Source: Anaerolineae bacterium (GTDB taxonomy: Bacteria > Chloroflexota > Anaerolineae > B4-G1). Taken from it: a DNA stretch of 49,649 nucleotides. The translations under genes and the position numbers were made by a program. Each line of letters opens with the position of its first letter. The first letter of the stretch is position 1. Below the pieces are notes generated by a model. The model had not been told where the DNA came from. It was given only the letters and a program-made list of their open reading frames with translations, and searched no databases. The DNA is taken from positions 1 through 49,649 of the forward strand of contig JAFGED010000202.1 in the NCBI GenBank assembly GCA_016931785.1. Reading direction: 5' to 3'. Shown here in pieces: positions 6,921-49,649 of this stretch.

Positions 6921-7016
6921 TGAATCCCCCGCTTGGCGACAATCCCTTGGATCGCGCCTCACCCCCGCCGCAATTGCCAACCGCTTCGCGTTTGGACGCT
7001 CTCCGGCTTTTCCCCA
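6921..7016 (-). repeat. Composite palindromic element (family 1), partial intergenic copy
   Basis: Minus strand begins ATGGGGAAAAGCCGGAGAGCGTCCAAACGCGAAGCGGTTGGCAAT..., matching one half of the copy at 26702-26931. Confidence 0.7.
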
Positions 7017-7022
7017 TAAAAA

Positions 7023-9424: not shown

Positions 9425-9552
9425 GTGAAGATCCCCGGCGCTTTGCGCCGGGGATCTTCCTAAGGGAAAAGCCCTTGGGGACCGCCGCCCCAAAATCCCC
9501 CGCTTTGCCATTCACCCCCACCACAAGCAGTGGGGTTTCTAGCTTTTCCCCA
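9425..9552 (-). repeat. Composite palindromic element (family 1), intergenic copy directly after the DUF2079 stop codon
   Basis: Minus strand ATGGGGAAAAGCTAGAAACCCC...GGGGTGAATGGCAAAGCGGGGGATTTTGGGGCGGCGGTCCCC...TTCCCTTAGGAAGATCCCCGGCGCAAAGCGCCGGGGATCTTCAC. Confidence 0.85.
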
Positions 9553-11232
9553 TCAAGGCCAACAAGGCCGATCTTGCTCGACTAGATCAGCCACGTAGGC
9601 CAACACGGCCTCTGTTTCTCCCTCAGCAGGTTCTCCCCGCTCAAGCAGTAGAATGCGCCCAGCCCAGTACCGCACACGAAAGTCGCCAGTGCCCATAATC
9701 TGTGTAACGATCTCCCCGTAGCTTGCGCGCGGGTCTGGAGCCGGGACGACCCTGCAATCCACCAAGTCAAATAACACATAGTCCACCATCTCCAGGTGAT
9801 CCAGCCGAAGCGGGGCAGGATACTCCAAAGCCACCAACACGCGGCGGTCAGCGAGTTGCGGCCCCAAGCGATTGACCGTGGCGACACCTGCATCGGGAGG
9901 AATCTGCGCCAGCGCCTCCGCAATCTGATCGTGGTGGGGTTCAGGCTGGAACATCCCCTCTCGAGCGTAGAGACAGATCGGGTTGAGGGCAATGTTGATA
10001 CCCAGCGTACCAAACACCATAAACGCAAGCCCCAAACGGTAGAGGCGGAGTCTGCCAGGGCGATGCAGTCGCCGCAAACCCTCAGACACCGCCAAGAAAA
10101 ACCAGGGGATCAGCACCGCAGGGTACTGGTAACCGACAGAGTGGAACGCCGGGCGCTCCCCCAGCAAGAGATAGGCCAGTGAAGGCAACGCCACTAGAAA
10201 GGAAGTGAAGCTCCCCGGCGCTTTGCGCCGGGACTTCCTAAGGGAAAAGCCCTCGGGGGCTGCCGCCCCCAAATCTCTCGCCTTGCCATTCACCCCCACC
10301 TCTTGCGGTGGGGTTCTCTGGCTTTTCCCCGTAGACCCCAGAAAAGGAAGAAATCCCAAGGGTAGAAACAGGTGAATCAAGTAGAGGGCAATCGTCTCAA
10401 AAGACGCGCTTCCTATGGGCTGCGCGGTTCCTCCTTGATCAGAGCTTACTCCTCCCAACAGCTTGATCCATAGCTGCCAGAAGCGATACGGCTGCCCCTC
10501 GTTGAAGGTGGGGATAATCAAGCCAAAACACAAAATCGCCCAGACTCCAGCCAGGATCACGAGCCCCAGTCCAACCCGCCGTCTCTTTCCCCACAAAAGA
10601 TTGACCACTCCCCACACTGCTATGGGGATCACCAACTCCTCCTTGACAGACAGGGCCAGCAACACGGCAACCCAGAAAAGGGCCGTTCGCTCTTCATGCA
10701 AAGCCCAATAAGCCAAAAGTATCAGAGGGACGGAAAAAGCGACAGGATGAAAATCCACCAGGTTGAGAAAGCCCAACGCAGGATAGGCCAGATAGCAACA
10801 AGAGACGATGAACGCCGCCCACGCATCCCCCGTCTGCTTGTGGACGACACAATAGAGCGGGAAAGCCGCCAGACCGAGAGCCACGCTCTGCAGGATGAGC
10901 AGCAAACGCGGATCCGGCCACACCCGATAGAGGGGCGCCAAGAAAAGCAGGATCGGGCGAACGTGGTTGCCCAAATAGCTGCCGATGAGCCCTGCGTTTG
11001 TCGCCCGATCTATGGAGGTCTCGAACCAGCGCCCGTGGGCCGTGTTCCAGGTCACCTGGGCCATGATGCCCAGGTCGAAAGTTGAGGAATAGAAATTGTT
11101 GTGCCTGACGACAGACAGCGCGCTGAAAGCAACCACATAAACCAGAATCAGCGGCAAAAGCAAGAGCCAAACTCGAGCTTTATGGCGAAACACAGCACCC
11201 CTTTGCGATGAATCTACTAACCACAAAACCAT
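9553..11232 (-). CDS. DUF2079 family membrane protein carrying an in-frame repeat insertion
   Basis: Paralog of 32941-34473 ('ALSVVRHNNFYSSTFDLGIMAQVTWNTAHGRWFETS', 'GYQYPAVLIPWFF', C-terminal 'RPCWP'); extra segment TGKSQRTPPQEVGVNGKARDLGAAAPEGFSLRKSRRKAPGSFT. Confidence 0.88.
   Translation of the reverse strand: MVLWLVDSSQRGAVFRHKARVWLLLLPLILVYVVAFSALSVVRHNNFYSSTFDLGIMAQVTWNTAHGRWFETSIDRATNAGLIGSYLGNHVRPILLFLAPLYRVWPDPRLLLILQSVALGLAAFPLYCVVHKQTGDAWAAFIVSCCYLAYPALGFLNLVDFHPVAFSVPLILLAYWALHEERTALFWVAVLLALSVKEELVIPIAVWGVVNLLWGKRRRVGLGLVILAGVWAILCFGLIIPTFNEGQPYRFWQLWIKLLGGVSSDQGGTAQPIGSASFETIALYLIHLFLPLGFLPFLGSTGKSQRTPPQEVGVNGKARDLGAAAPEGFSLRKSRRKAPGSFTSFLVALPSLAYLLLGERPAFHSVGYQYPAVLIPWFFLAVSEGLRRLHRPGRLRLYRLGLAFMVFGTLGINIALNPICLYAREGMFQPEPHHDQIAEALAQIPPDAGVATVNRLGPQLADRRVLVALEYPAPLRLDHLEMVDYVLFDLVDCRVVPAPDPRASYGEIVTQIMGTGDFRVRYWAGRILLLERGEPAEGETEAVLAYVADLVEQDRPCWP
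10205..10332 (-). repeat. Composite palindromic element (family 1), 128 bp, in frame inside the DUF2079 CDS
   Basis: Minus strand ACGGGGAAAAGCCAGA...GATTTGGGGGCGGCAGCCCCC...TTCCCTTAGGAAG...GGCGCAAAGCGCCGGGGAGCTTCAC; absent from the paralog. Confidence 0.88.
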
Positions 11233-11261: not shown

Positions 11262-11399
11262 CTAACAAGCTTTCTCAATCCTCATCCCCAGGTCGAAAGT
11301 AAACGAGTAGAAATTGTCGTGCTTCAAGACGGACAACGCACTGAAAGTCACGATGTAGATCAAAACCAGTGTCCAGAGCCAGCCCGGCGATTTGTTCAT
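11262..11399 (-). pseudogene. N-terminal remnant of a third DUF2079 gene
   Basis: MNKSPGWLWTLVLIYIVTFSALSVLKHDNFYSFTFDLGMRIEKAC*; matches the N-termini of both DUF2079 proteins up to 'FDLG', then stops. Confidence 0.8.
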
Positions 11400-25008: not shown

Positions 25009-26958
25009 TCAAGGCTCCCTCGGCACGTAATCGGCGATCACCAAGGGCGGTATGGTAGGCACCCTGGATACCGTCCCGGCTTCCACCTGCCAACCTGCAG
25101 AGATGCTTCTCACCAGCGGCGTCTCCTGATCGGCCAGCCGGGCCACTCGCACGCGCCCCACACCCTGCGCGGCCAGCCGCTCGTCCAACGCGCTCCATTC
25201 GTCCGGCGTGCGCACGACGAGGAACGGCACCTCGCCGTACACCTCCGGCGCGATCTGCGGCACGAACCAGAGATCGGTGACGACGACGGTCCTATCAGGC
25301 GCGCGAAGCAGCGTGCGCGCGAGCACGTCGTTCCCGGCACGGACGTGCCACAGCTTCATCACGCCCACCGCCTGTACCGCCGCTCCGGCCAGCAACAGCG
25401 TCACTAACGCCCCGCGCACCGCGTACCGCTCCATCGAGGAACGCGCGCCCCGTTCCAGACGATCCCAGCGCTCGACGGCCAACAGCACGAGCGGCCCCAG
25501 TAGCGGCGTCAAATAGCGCGGTCCCCACTGCCACCCGCCGGACTGGCGGCCCAGCACGACCGATAATACCACGACCCACACACACCAAACTGCCAGCTGC
25601 CGCCGCCAACGGCCCCGGGTCGCTACGCTCTCGGCTCGCTCTCCGAATCTCAAAAACGCCAGGCAGGCCACCGGCGCTCCGAACAACAGGTCAATCGGGT
25701 GGTAGCCGCGCGACACCAACACCACCGCGCCCACAGCCACCAGCACGAGGCCGAGACATTCGACCGTCGAACCCAATCGCCCGGCCAGGGCCGGACGCAG
25801 CCTGCGATAGGCATACGCCATCCCGAAAACCGCCAGCCCGCCGGCCAGGATCACCAGCACGCCCAGCTGCCGGCTCTCCACGACCATCTGGCTCATCTCG
25901 AACAAACGCCTGAACGACCACACGCGGGTCTCAAAAGCCGATGGGGCAAAGTTCATCGCGGCCTGGCCGCCGATCGCTTGGCCCACGACGGCGGCCTGAT
26001 ACGCCCAGCCTACCAGGCCTGCCAGGCCCAGTCCGGCCGTCACCCAACCCAGCGCCGGCCACATCGAACGCCGCACGACCAGCACGGCCAGCAAGGCCAA
26101 CACAGAAGTACCCGCCTCCGGACGGGTCGCCACCGCCGCTCCCAGGCACAACCCCGCCGCGATCCCCGACAGGACCCGCGACTGGCGCATGTCTGGAATC
26201 ACCAGCGTCAACGCCCCCCAGATCAGCACGCTGGCGAGCGTGTGCCCCCAAAACGTCACACTGTAAAACAGCCACGACGAGGCCAGTCCCAGCGCCAGCA
26301 CGACGAAAAAGGCGACCCGTCCAGAAAACCGGCGGCCCACCCAAGCCGCCAGGGCCAGCCCCCCCACCCCCGCGATCAGCGGCGGGGCGTAGAGCGCTGG
26401 CAGTCCCCCAGCCGACAGCAACAGGCTGGACAGAAATATGTAGGGCAGCGTATAGATCGTGAGAACGCGATCTCCCTCCCACACGGCAAAGGGCGCGCCC
26501 AGCGGGGCCAGAGCGTGATCCGGATCGAGGACGGCATTGGCCCCGGCGTAGGAAGCCCAGGGCGTGCGCCAGCCGTTGGCGATCCAGGCCTCCATCTGCC
26601 ACAGCTTGACGCCGGCATCTCCGCTCCAAAAGCCGCGACAGGGCGACAGCGCCAGCACGATCCCCACGTACAGCGCGCCAACGATCACGACCAGCACCCA
26701 CGTGAAGCTCCCCGGCGCAAAGCGCCGGGGCTTCCGGGAAGACTCCCCTTCGGGGAGCTTCCTAAGGGAAGAAGCCTGTGCGAGCTTCGCTCGCGCGGGG
26801 GCGGCCGCCCCCAAATCCCCCGCTTTACGGCAATCCTGCGGATTACGGCAATCCAAGGGATTGCACCTCATCCCCACCGCAATGCGATTGCCAACCGCAA
26901 AGCGGTTGGACGCTTTCTGGCTTTTCCCCGTCAAGCGCAGGAGATTTTCACGGTTCAT
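25009..26958 (-). CDS. Multi-TM GT39-like protein with an in-frame repeat element right after the first nine residues
   Basis: ATG at 26958 (ATGA overlap with the upstream gene); MNRENLLRL followed by the 230-bp element, then 'WVLVVIVGALYVGIVLALSPCRGFWSGDAGVKLWQMEAWIANGW'. Confidence 0.8.
   Translation of the reverse strand: MNRENLLRLTGKSQKASNRFAVGNRIAVGMRCNPLDCRNPQDCRKAGDLGAAAPARAKLAQASSLRKLPEGESSRKPRRFAPGSFTWVLVVIVGALYVGIVLALSPCRGFWSGDAGVKLWQMEAWIANGWRTPWASYAGANAVLDPDHALAPLGAPFAVWEGDRVLTIYTLPYIFLSSLLLSAGGLPALYAPPLIAGVGGLALAAWVGRRFSGRVAFFVVLALGLASSWLFYSVTFWGHTLASVLIWGALTLVIPDMRQSRVLSGIAAGLCLGAAVATRPEAGTSVLALLAVLVVRRSMWPALGWVTAGLGLAGLVGWAYQAAVVGQAIGGQAAMNFAPSAFETRVWSFRRLFEMSQMVVESRQLGVLVILAGGLAVFGMAYAYRRLRPALAGRLGSTVECLGLVLVAVGAVVLVSRGYHPIDLLFGAPVACLAFLRFGERAESVATRGRWRRQLAVWCVWVVVLSVVLGRQSGGWQWGPRYLTPLLGPLVLLAVERWDRLERGARSSMERYAVRGALVTLLLAGAAVQAVGVMKLWHVRAGNDVLARTLLRAPDRTVVVTDLWFVPQIAPEVYGEVPFLVVRTPDEWSALDERLAAQGVGRVRVARLADQETPLVRSISAGWQVEAGTVSRVPTIPPLVIADYVPREP
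26702..26931 (-). repeat. Composite palindromic element (family 1), long 230-bp copy, in frame inside CDS
   Basis: Minus strand ACGGGGAAAAGCCAGA...GATTTGGGGGCGGCCGCCCCC...TTCCCTTAGGAAG...CGGCGCTTTGCGCCGGGGAGCTTCAC; peptide TGKSQKASNRFAVGN...AGDLGAAAP...SSLRK...APGSFT. Confidence 0.88.
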
Positions 26959-31439: not shown

Positions 31440-32953
31440 TCGCCGTCTACCTCCCGTAAGTCACACAGCAAGAGACTCACACCATACCACACTCTCGCAT
31501 CCTCGCAGTCGTAGCTCCTCGCGGCCCGTTCCACGATCCCGCGATGGCGCTCGGCAAGCTCCTGCGACATCTGCACGTCGGCGGTGACGAGCCACAACCG
31601 CTCCCGCCCGGCGATGGCCTCGTCGAGTGACTGGATCCGCTGCCCGGCCCAATCCCACGTATAGGGTGGCAGCCAGATTTCTGGGTCATTGTTCAGCAAA
31701 TAGCTCTCCGCCCCCGGCGCATAGTAGCGCAGCGGCAAGTAGGTGCTATCGTGCAGATGAAAGAGAACGTCCCCCTCCCGCCAGCCCTCCCGCACCCCCC
31801 CGCCAACCTCGCGAAACGGCGGCTTGGCCGGGTCGGGGTTGAGATAATAGTTCCCAAGCGAGATCGCTATCAAGACCGCCAGAACCCCGTAAAGAACCCG
31901 CACCGGAGAGCCCTTGGGCGGATGCGCCAATCCCCATCCCAGCAGCAGCACGTAAGCCGGCGCGACCAGGCTGAAGGAACGGTCCAGGTAAACGGGCTTG
32001 GCCAGCCAGGAGATCACCAGAGCGATCAAGTTTGGAGCCAGCACCAACGCCAGCAGCAAAAGCGCCCGCTGGCGCGCCTCGCCACGGGCGCGGACGCCAG
32101 CCCAAGCCACGAGTGTGATGATGGACAAAGCCATGAAAAGCGCCACCGGATTCAGGAACACGGGCGTCGTATGGCTAAAGAGCAGATAAACCAGCGTCTT
32201 GACGAGTTCCAGCGGGGAGGGCGTGGAGAGCCAAAAGCCGGTCGCCACCTGCTGAGTTTGCGCCAGCGCCGATGGCGCGTGCGGCCCCCACAACACCAGG
32301 GCCACCCCATCGGCCAGGAGCAGGCCCCACCAATAACGCCGGTCTTGCGGCCATTTCAGCAAAACAAAGGCGTGGAGCACCAGCAGCGTGAACGCGGTAA
32401 AATAGTGCGCGCAAAGATTCAGGGCGAACAGAAAACCCAGCACGACCCAGCGCCACCCACTCGCCTTCTCGCAAGCGCGGGCGAACCCCCACAGCAGCAA
32501 CGCCGATAGCAAGATGACGAGCGCGTACAATCGGGTCTCCTGGGCAAAGTAAACCTGGAAGGGCAGCACGGCCGTCAGCAGCGCGGCAGCCAGCCCGGTG
32601 GCGGGGGTAAACAGCTCGCGGCCGAGCGCGTATATCACAGGAACGGTCAGCAGCCCACACAGCGCCGAAAAGCCGCGCAGCACCGTTTCACTCTCGCCCA
32701 ACCGAATCCAGAAATGAAGCAGAAAGTGATAAAGCGGGGGTAGAATTGGCTCCAGCCGCTGGGCGAGAATAGCCCAGGCCGGTTGCCGCGCCACCAGCCA
32801 ACTGAATGCCTCGTCGGCCCACAGGCTGCTGGCGCCGATGTGAAGCAGGCGCAGGACGCAAGCCAACACCAGAACCGCCAGCAGCCAGACCGGGCTTTCC
32901 ACACGCGGGAGACGGCCCAGAAGAGAACGCAGACGAGAGCTTACGGCCAGCAC
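31436..32953 (-). CDS. GT39-like membrane glycosyltransferase ('YFAQETRLYAL' subgroup)
   Basis: 'GASSLWADEAFSWLVARQPAW...FQVYFAQETRLYALV'; clear paralog of 17704-19158 and 23480-24988. Confidence 0.85.
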   Translation of the reverse strand: MLAVSSRLRSLLGRLPRVESPVWLLAVLVLACVLRLLHIGASSLWADEAFSWLVARQPAWAILAQRLEPILPPLYHFLLHFWIRLGESETVLRGFSALCGLLTVPVIYALGRELFTPATGLAAALLTAVLPFQVYFAQETRLYALVILLSALLLWGFARACEKASGWRWVVLGFLFALNLCAHYFTAFTLLVLHAFVLLKWPQDRRYWWGLLLADGVALVLWGPHAPSALAQTQQVATGFWLSTPSPLELVKTLVYLLFSHTTPVFLNPVALFMALSIITLVAWAGVRARGEARQRALLLLALVLAPNLIALVISWLAKPVYLDRSFSLVAPAYVLLLGWGLAHPPKGSPVRVLYGVLAVLIAISLGNYYLNPDPAKPPFREVGGGVREGWREGDVLFHLHDSTYLPLRYYAPGAESYLLNNDPEIWLPPYTWDWAGQRIQSLDEAIAGRERLWLVTADVQMSQELAERHRGIVERAARSYDCEDARVWYGVSLLLCDLREVDGE

Positions 32954-34473
32954 GGTCGCCCTTCCTCCACCAGGTCGTCCACATAGGCCCGCACCTCGTC
33001 CACCTCTTCCCCTGGCGGAAGGCCGCGTTCCAAAAGAAGGATGCGATCAGACCAATAGCGCACGCCAAAATCCCGCGTGTCGAGAATCTCGTATGTCATT
33101 CGCCCATAGTCGCCTCTCGGGTCCTGCGTGTGAAACAGGCGACAATCCACCAGGTCCAACAAGACATAGTCCACTTCGGCCATGTGGTCCATATTCAAGC
33201 CGGTCGTGTATTTTTCAAGGCCAATCAAGCAGCGCCGATTGGCCAGGTGAGGTCCAAAAGGATTGACGGTGGCGACACCGGCCCGGGGAGGGATCAGCGC
33301 CATCGCCGCTTCGATCTGCTCGTGCTGAGGCATGTGCATAAAGTAACCGCTCAGCCAACTGGTTCGGACCGGGTTAAAGGGCAAGTTTGCGCCCAATGTC
33401 CCTATCAACAGCAAACTTACAGGCAGCCACTTTTTCAAATCGTGCCGCAGCCGCAAGCGTCTTTCCAGCCTGGACAATCCCTGGATGGTGGCTAGGAACA
33501 GCCAGGGAATCAACACGGCAGGATATTGAAAACCGACTTGGTGCAAAGCAGCTCGGTCGCTCAAAAGCAAATATGCAAACGAAGGCCAAGACACGGCGAA
33601 TAATTCGGGCCCGAACAGAGGCAAAAACCCCAAGGGTATTAAGAGATGGGCAACAAAGTAGGCCGAGTCAACGGAAAACAAAGCCCCTCCAGAGCCCCCA
33701 CCACTACTCCCCAATTCTCCCAAAAACGGCAACCGAGACCATAGATCAAAGAAACGATAGGCGCGTCCTTCGTTGGCAGCGGGGATGATCACGATGAAAC
33801 AAAGAAACGCCCAGGCGATGGCCGTTCCCAGCAACCACACCCCTCTCCTGCGCCACGCTGAAAAGAACAGACAATAAACACCAAAGGCTGCTACAGGAAC
33901 GACCAACTCCTCCTTGGTCGATAGGGTAAGCAAGATCATCGCCCAGAAGAGAATCTTACGCTCTTCCAACAAAGCCCAATAGGCAAAAAGCAATGCAGGG
34001 ACACAAAAAGCCACGGGGTGAAAATCAAACAGGTTGATAAAGCCCAAGGCCGGATACAACAAATACACAATAACCAGGACGTAATGCAAAATAGGGCGCT
34101 TTAAATTTCGCCGTGCAATCCAGTACAACGGTACAGCCCCCACTGCCAGCACAATCGATTGCATGCTCAACAACACGCGAGGGTCGGGCCACAGCCGGTA
34201 CAGCGGCGCCAGAAAGAGCAGCAGGGGCCGCACGTGATTGCCCATATAGCTGCCGATCAGTTCTGTATCCATCGCTCGATCCAGCGACGTCTCAAACAGC
34301 CGCCCATGTGCCGTATTCCAGGTGACCTGGGTCATGATGCCCAGATCGAGCGTAAAAGAATGAAAGTTGTCATGCTTGACTATCGACAAAGTCGCATATG
34401 TCGCCACGTAAACCAACATCAGCACACAGAGCCATATCGGCACAGCCTTACTCAGCTTCGGAACGAACGTCAT
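32941..34473 (-). CDS. DUF2079 family membrane protein (without insertion)
   Basis: Paralog of 9553-11232; 'LSIVKHDNFHSFTLDLGIMTQVTWNTAHGRLFETSLDRAMDTELIGSYMGNHVRPLLL'. Confidence 0.88.
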   Translation of the reverse strand: MTFVPKLSKAVPIWLCVLMLVYVATYATLSIVKHDNFHSFTLDLGIMTQVTWNTAHGRLFETSLDRAMDTELIGSYMGNHVRPLLLFLAPLYRLWPDPRVLLSMQSIVLAVGAVPLYWIARRNLKRPILHYVLVIVYLLYPALGFINLFDFHPVAFCVPALLFAYWALLEERKILFWAMILLTLSTKEELVVPVAAFGVYCLFFSAWRRRGVWLLGTAIAWAFLCFIVIIPAANEGRAYRFFDLWSRLPFLGELGSSGGGSGGALFSVDSAYFVAHLLIPLGFLPLFGPELFAVSWPSFAYLLLSDRAALHQVGFQYPAVLIPWLFLATIQGLSRLERRLRLRHDLKKWLPVSLLLIGTLGANLPFNPVRTSWLSGYFMHMPQHEQIEAAMALIPPRAGVATVNPFGPHLANRRCLIGLEKYTTGLNMDHMAEVDYVLLDLVDCRLFHTQDPRGDYGRMTYEILDTRDFGVRYWSDRILLLERGLPPGEEVDEVRAYVDDLVEEGRPCWP

Positions 34474-49548: not shown

Positions 49549-49562
49549 TGAGTTCCTCAAAC

Positions 49563-49649
49563 GTAACTACTCAGGCTATTCGCCTGAGCAGTCTCCCTCG
49601 CTCGAAAAGGGGAGAGATGGGGGGTTTGGAGAGCGGCTTCGCCGCTCTC
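49563..49649. mobile_element. Second copy of the GTAACTACTCAG MITE-like element (truncated by window end)
   Basis: GTAACTACTCAGGCTATTCGCCTGAGCAGTCTCCCTCGCTCGAAAAGGGGAG... matches 2120-2165 at ~43/46 positions, then enters a hairpin 'gagagcggcttcgccgctctc'. Confidence 0.8.

Follow-up and report, generated by a model that had tools for sequence, protein, structure and literature searches.

The DUF2079 gene at 9553–11232 carries, in frame, a palindromic insert of 126 bp that is very probably one copy of a transposase-less, PATE-like derivative of IS200/IS605 transposons, with TnpA presumably supplied in trans. We assign it to such a derivative, and not to a family without known relatives, because the left-end (LE) hairpin and a TTAY-type target are shared with TnpB-encoding elements. 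Insertion into a reading frame is a minority outcome among the full-length copies in this genome (3/28), and a position exactly at a stop codon is commoner (7/28).

An in-frame insertion in a DUF2079 gene

The window, the whole 49,649 bp stretch of DNA that was analysed, contains the inserted gene, a paralog with an empty site, and several further copies of the element. The features of the insert and of the two genes are as follows.

9553–11232, minus strand: DUF2079 membrane protein with insert (PF09852, 3.8e-62)
32941–34473, minus strand: DUF2079 paralog with an empty site (56% identity, insert absent)
10205–10330, minus strand: in-frame element in the DUF2079 gene, 126 bp, 42 aa; the transposon strand is the minus strand
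10285–10330, minus strand: LE hairpin, GGGGAAAAGCCAGAGAACCCC..GGGGGTGAATGGC, a homolog of the left end in IS200/IS605 elements that encode TnpB
10205–10238, minus strand: right-end (RE) hairpin, GGAAGTCCCGGCGCAAAGCGCCGGGGAGCTTCAC, ending in TCAC, from the fold and alignment
10331–10334, plus strand: GTAG, the target tetranucleotide that is retained (on the transposon strand, CTAC), assigned by comparison with the TTAC preceding the LE of IS elements

The nested palindromes originally noted at 10205–10332 are present as described, and these 128 bp are read in frame within an ORF of 559 aa. They fold into a terminal hairpin and a stem enclosing two hairpins, with nested hairpins on either strand, and none of 200 shuffled sequences was as stable (DNA z = -4.9; RNA z = -5.7 and -5.65). 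The extra segment, first put at about 42 residues relative to the paralog, is exactly 42 aa, and its coordinates are corrected to a net insertion of 126 bp (10205–10330) adjoined by the 4 nt target GTAG. Taking it out of the gene yields FLPFLGSTSFLVALPS, where the paralog has FLPLFGPELFAVSWPS of equal length, and the paralog (P0002) lacks the insert while being 56% identical to the rest of the protein. With DUF2079 homologs in relatives the alignment stops at about residue 299 and, where it restarts, does so at 344/345. The insert is missing from all other DUF2079 matches found and so is not an ancestral domain, with the paralog and the homologs in relatives taking the place of a strain-level empty site. 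A peptide expected if the insert is translated is DLGAAAPEGFSLR; an AlphaFold model of the protein with the insert, built on a two-row alignment, has a pLDDT of 44 and was set aside as evidence. Just upstream of the inserted gene, at 11284–11382, lies a DUF2079 N-terminal fragment (58% identity over 42 aa), apparently the remnant of a tandem paralog.

Copies of the element and their anatomy

The element occurs elsewhere in the window, as had been noted, in the following places.

9425–9551, minus strand: second copy, directly adjoining the stop of DUF2079; its target, ATCA (9552–9555), holds the native TGA stop (minus strand)
26702–26929, minus strand: long form of the element (228 bp, 76 aa), inserted in frame behind codon 9 of a membrane protein gene, with GTCA (26930–26933) as target
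25009–26958, minus strand: membrane protein ORF (MNRENLLRL..) with the long-form copy; its start overlaps the upstream stop (ATGA); no Pfam match
6937–7015, minus strand: 5′-truncated copy, LE side only; target ATAA (7016–7019)

Across the source genome we find the element in at least 59 merged places, using two BLAST searches (with short and long window copies) and a pattern scan for the right end, so it is clearly not single copy. About 15 copies are cut by contig ends, as would be expected of a repeat that disrupts assembly, and 59 is therefore a lower bound. An exact 18-mer scan of the genome_contigs collection returned only three stray single matches in unrelated taxa, which we treat as chance, and there was no match to the element in viral_contigs, plasmids or phages.

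The 28 full copies are 93–230 bp long, too short for a transposase gene, and up to 95% identical, differing mostly by extra or swapped hairpins. The shortest is a 93 bp minimal copy (positions 1447–1539 of L042) that has lost the middle and kept the ends. At the left end 26 of the 28 begin with GTGA and two with GTAA. In 24 of the 28, the CCCC of the right end leads into R plus TAA (13 copies), TAG (six) or TGA (five), although only the last two of these letters are independent because the search pattern asked for the first two (with one mismatch allowed). There are no terminal inverted repeats, the ends being GTGAAG and CTTTTCCCC, with the GGGAAAAGCC/GGCTTTTCCC stem internal on one side. Nor is there a target-site duplication, as the left GTGA and the right tetranucleotide differ in most copies and the flanks have no common repeat. 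A classical MITE was considered and rejected, the element having neither terminal inverted repeats nor a target duplication. Folds and alignment place palindromes (the RE and LE hairpins) near both termini, and on the transposon strand the layout is TYAY followed by GGGGAAAAGCCAG..(LE hairpin)..TGAATGGC ... (RE hairpin)..TCAC.

The net length of an insertion cannot alone distinguish which side is the target. The copy at 9425–9551 is informative: the DUF2079 stop, read on the minus strand, lies within ATCA, the tetranucleotide to the right of this copy, and RPCWP is the C-terminus of the paralog too. The left GTGA was ruled out as the target, since the 9425 copy would then leave DUF2079 without its native stop at the paralog's position. 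This one copy in the genome, together with the IS comparison below, shows the right-hand tetranucleotide to be the probable target.

Several other features of individual copies and of the window were recorded. In the L003 and L005 copies the LE arm has turned into a long, perfect palindrome (GCCATTCACCCCCACCGCAAGCGGTGGGGGTGAATGGC), which looks like a copying of one arm onto its partner. At L061 (positions 186–226) a copy begins directly after a tRNA-like 3′ end (..GGTTCAAATCCCCGCGCCCCGACTAG followed by GTGAAAC..). The window also has a second dispersed repeat, CGTAACTACTCAGGCTA...GAGAGCGGC..GCCGCTCTC, in two copies (2119–2206 and 49562–49649) that are 86% identical, and a stretch resembling it comes after the element copy in L047.

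Relationship to IS200/IS605 transposons

The right-hand hairpin of the element is the left end on the transposon strand, and it matches the LE of TnpB-encoding IS200/IS605 transposons. The shared LE has the form TTAC followed by ...GCCAGAAAG-CCC..GGG-ATGAATGGC, with covarying pairs, and in G569/G548 elements a C-G pair of the closing helix is changed to G-C. An alignment of 16 left ends (five of IS type and 11 from mini-elements) has 96.4% of cells paired compared with 34–47% when slid, a control that flatters the structure because the structure was drawn from the same sequences. The alignment contains 31 double changes compared with 10.7 in shuffles, a control that is without this bias but ignores relatedness. 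At the RE both groups have a hairpin and a TCAC/TCAA-like end, with identity lower than for the LE (57% mean column identity); the relationship of the ends is thus strong for the LE and weak for the RE.

The transposon is defined by two 95%-identical TnpB transposon copies in one other genome (G722), with TTAC followed by AAGAAACGAGCCAGAAAGCCCCC..GGGGGATGAATGGC, then TnpB, then GAATCCCCC..GGGGGAGTGTCAA; both copies run from TTAC and AAGAAACGAGCCAGAAAGCCC... to ...GTGTCAA/GTGCCAA. Several weaker matches of a second covariance model fall where TnpB genes or a TnpB fragment begin. The source genome, with an assembly only ~90% complete, yielded no autonomous partner carrying these ends, and the TnpA and TnpB genes on four of its contigs (C111, C173, C445, C316) have no element-like ends nearby. 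On one of these (C173) a TnpA and TnpB pair of IS605 type (L185, 3586–4956), also without element-like ends, is ~3 kb from a copy of the element.

These ends qualify the original prediction of an independent family of selfish, peptide-tolerated repeats. The element does look mobile, palindromic and multi-copy, is absent from orthologs and is distinct from the Rickettsia RPE, but its IS200/IS605 ends mean that the family is not without a place. They also bear on whether this is a REP/REPIN element that depends on a domesticated TnpA-REP (RAYT) for movement, which we regard as hardly probable at all. A tetranucleotide tag does adjoin the terminal hairpin, and GTAG REPs too give stop codons to flanking ORFs and can sit within ORFs (PMC3733652); however, the tag here is GTGA and not GTAG, the element is 126–228 bp with two distinct ends and not a 20–40 bp unit, and the homology points to the ends of TnpB-encoding transposons.

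Related elements in other genomes

BLAST searches of 59 relatives found no copies of the element, but this absence is misleading because covariance models did detect copies in relatives. A model built from 14 copies matches the same architecture in four genomes (G119, G181, G070 and G040), and a cross-lineage model finds it in other classes, including in two single-contig genomes. Models built from mini-elements alone extend the family, within the phylum, to genera, families and classes different from those of the source genome. G119 has at least six near-identical copies, starting GTTAAC or GTAAAG, and part of the core (GCCGCCCCCAA..CCCCGCT..GCCATTC) is common to element copies of different lineages. 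An alignment of all model matches (A2) was spoiled by antisense palindrome matches. A different repeat family, in another genome of the phylum (G427), has a hairpin core resembling this one (CGGGGGCCTGCGGCCCCCAAACCCCCGCTAGGAATGGC; L156 and L172).

That the internal core (GGGGGCNGCCGCCCCCAA..CCCCGCT..GCCATTC) is kept between lineages with differing termini could suggest a family of structured non-coding RNA genes, similar to HEARO or omega-RNA, with a guide in the left flank and RTRAA as target-adjacent motif, whose spread would depend on an RNA-guided nuclease and not on passive transposon ends. The hairpin arms covary and the right flank resembles a target-adjacent motif, and the right end of TnpB elements of the IS605 group encodes a guide RNA. 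We nevertheless consider it improbable. The HEARO model (RF02033) has no match in four carrier genomes except one below threshold in G181 (E = 0.056), and Rfam, at gathering and relaxed thresholds, gives no credible match and none above cut-off at the element. TnpB is present in only two of five carrier genomes, not adjoining the element. The IscB RRXRR domain has no match in the genome, but controls of the same search were also silent. The HEARO/IscB idea was dropped on the RF02033 and IscB searches.

Positions of copies relative to genes

Three of the 28 full copies are in credible reading frames, all of them on the minus strand and in the same frame: those in the DUF2079 gene, in a beta-helix protein on C58, and in the membrane protein whose ORF begins at 26958 with MNRENLLRL. 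In the beta-helix protein (..VWYTITI, insert, TATGGVTQTVDV..) the flanks rejoin cleanly without the insert, whose translation would include AGDLGVAALEGFSLR. The case at 26702–26929 is less secure, since a later GTG, past the insert, could be the real start of translation. The net lengths of the coding copies are 126, 126 and 228 bp, all divisible by three, whereas non-coding copies are mixed modulo 3.

In seven copies the insertion point coincides exactly with the stop codon of a gene that has a Pfam match; the reading frame of the gene closes on GTGA from the element, and a stop triplet lies displaced in the retained target. The genes encode GAF, PALP, PCMT, glycosyltransferase 2, CBM96, histidine kinase and ammonium transporter proteins, and the PCMT, HATPase_c and ammonium transporter domains are near complete. 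This is a quarter of the copies (25%) compared with 14 of 903 RTRA sites in the window that are such stop codons (1.6%); if selection purges insertions inside genes, the expected share is ~13% (14/104), and target choice and purging therefore explain much of the excess. Mini-elements of other genomes were also examined for in-frame or stop-codon positions, with no convincing case. The predicted tolerance of the element as peptide thus holds in a few genes, but the stop-codon copies outnumber those in frame.

We consider it very improbable that the element is a coding repeat of the Rickettsia RPE type, selected for peptide insertion and with a peptide that is itself functional. Its size is similar, there are in-frame insertions, and a conserved peptide, MGKSQRTPPLAVGVNGKAGDLGAAAPKGFSLRKPRRFAPGSF, is open in many copies; however, few full copies are in a credible frame, the lengths of the others are mixed, and the ends are of IS605 type, without the 12 bp terminal inverted repeats given for RPE (PMC2229807).

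Proposed mechanism and significance

We propose that the element is a non-autonomous IS200/IS605 derivative in which left-end and right-end hairpins flank a short structured middle and a transposase gene is lacking. A Y1 (HUH) TnpA acting in trans would recognise the hairpins on single-stranded DNA, excise the strand and insert it on the 3′ side of a TYAY-type tetranucleotide, leaving the target unduplicated. A stop triplet is present at both ends in the same plus-strand register, on the left in the GTGA of the element and on the right in the target's R plus TAA, TAG or TGA, and for this reason insertion at a gene's stop codon is silent. The consensus is open in one minus-strand frame, such that a copy in the right frame and with a net length that is a multiple of three could add a peptide of 42–76 aa and leave the gene unbroken, presumably at little cost. 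Copies spared by selection would then be those lying between genes or at stop codons and, in rare cases, those in frame.

To our knowledge, it has stayed unclear how palindromic repeats that encode protein, RPE among them, are spread. A coding-tolerated family whose ends can be compared with known transposons suggests a specific chemistry: TnpA on single-stranded DNA, no duplication and a TYAY target. The element offers two entries into dense bacterial genomes without gene breakage, either substituting its own stop codon or adding a peptide in frame. A broader reading, which we think rather unlikely, is that this is a phylum-wide transposase-less IS605 lineage maintaining a structured core independently of any autonomous parent, that its end registers, with a stop triplet at either end, an open frame and lengths divisible by three, have been shaped for harmless insertion into genes, and that by analogy RPE-like palindromes might be single-strand transposons of IS605 type.

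Comparison with known systems

PATEs and IS200/IS605 transposons are already known kinds of element; what is new is a PATE-like derivative with coding-compatible insertions. As far as they are described in the parts of the source consulted, the PATEs of Haloquadratum walsbyi have no transposase gene or terminal inverted repeats, near-terminal IS605-related palindromes and no target duplication (PMC3119063). The element resembles them in these parts of the description in being transposase-free, with near-terminal palindromes, an IS605 relationship and many copies per genome, and differs in its bacterial Chloroflexota genome, its in-frame copies in proteins and its copies exactly at stop codons (PMC3119063).

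The TnpB-only IS200/IS605 transposons of the same phylum (IS1341-type; L177, L178 and L181) share with it an LE hairpin whose internal loop is GCCAGAAAG/ATGAATGGC, a TTAC target on the LE side and an RE hairpin before a TCAA-like end; where these transposons encode TnpB, the mini-elements have a short structured middle. GTAG REP/REPIN elements with TnpA-REP (PMC3733652, PMC8266576) likewise have a tagged hairpin, a link to an IS200/IS605-type transposase and a stop codon for flanking genes, and differ in unit size, tag and the lack of the two-ended architecture.

The Rickettsia RPE are also ~105–150 bp and palindromic, with some in-frame fusions and a conserved peptide, although nearly half of them are in ORFs (PMC2229807, PMC10969869) compared with 3/28 here. 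Their tabulated 12 bp terminal inverted repeats (PMC2229807) and the CGTC in which some end (PMC3733652) contrast with the GTGA and the CCCC plus RTRA at the ends of this element. RPE is a functional analogue and not a relative.
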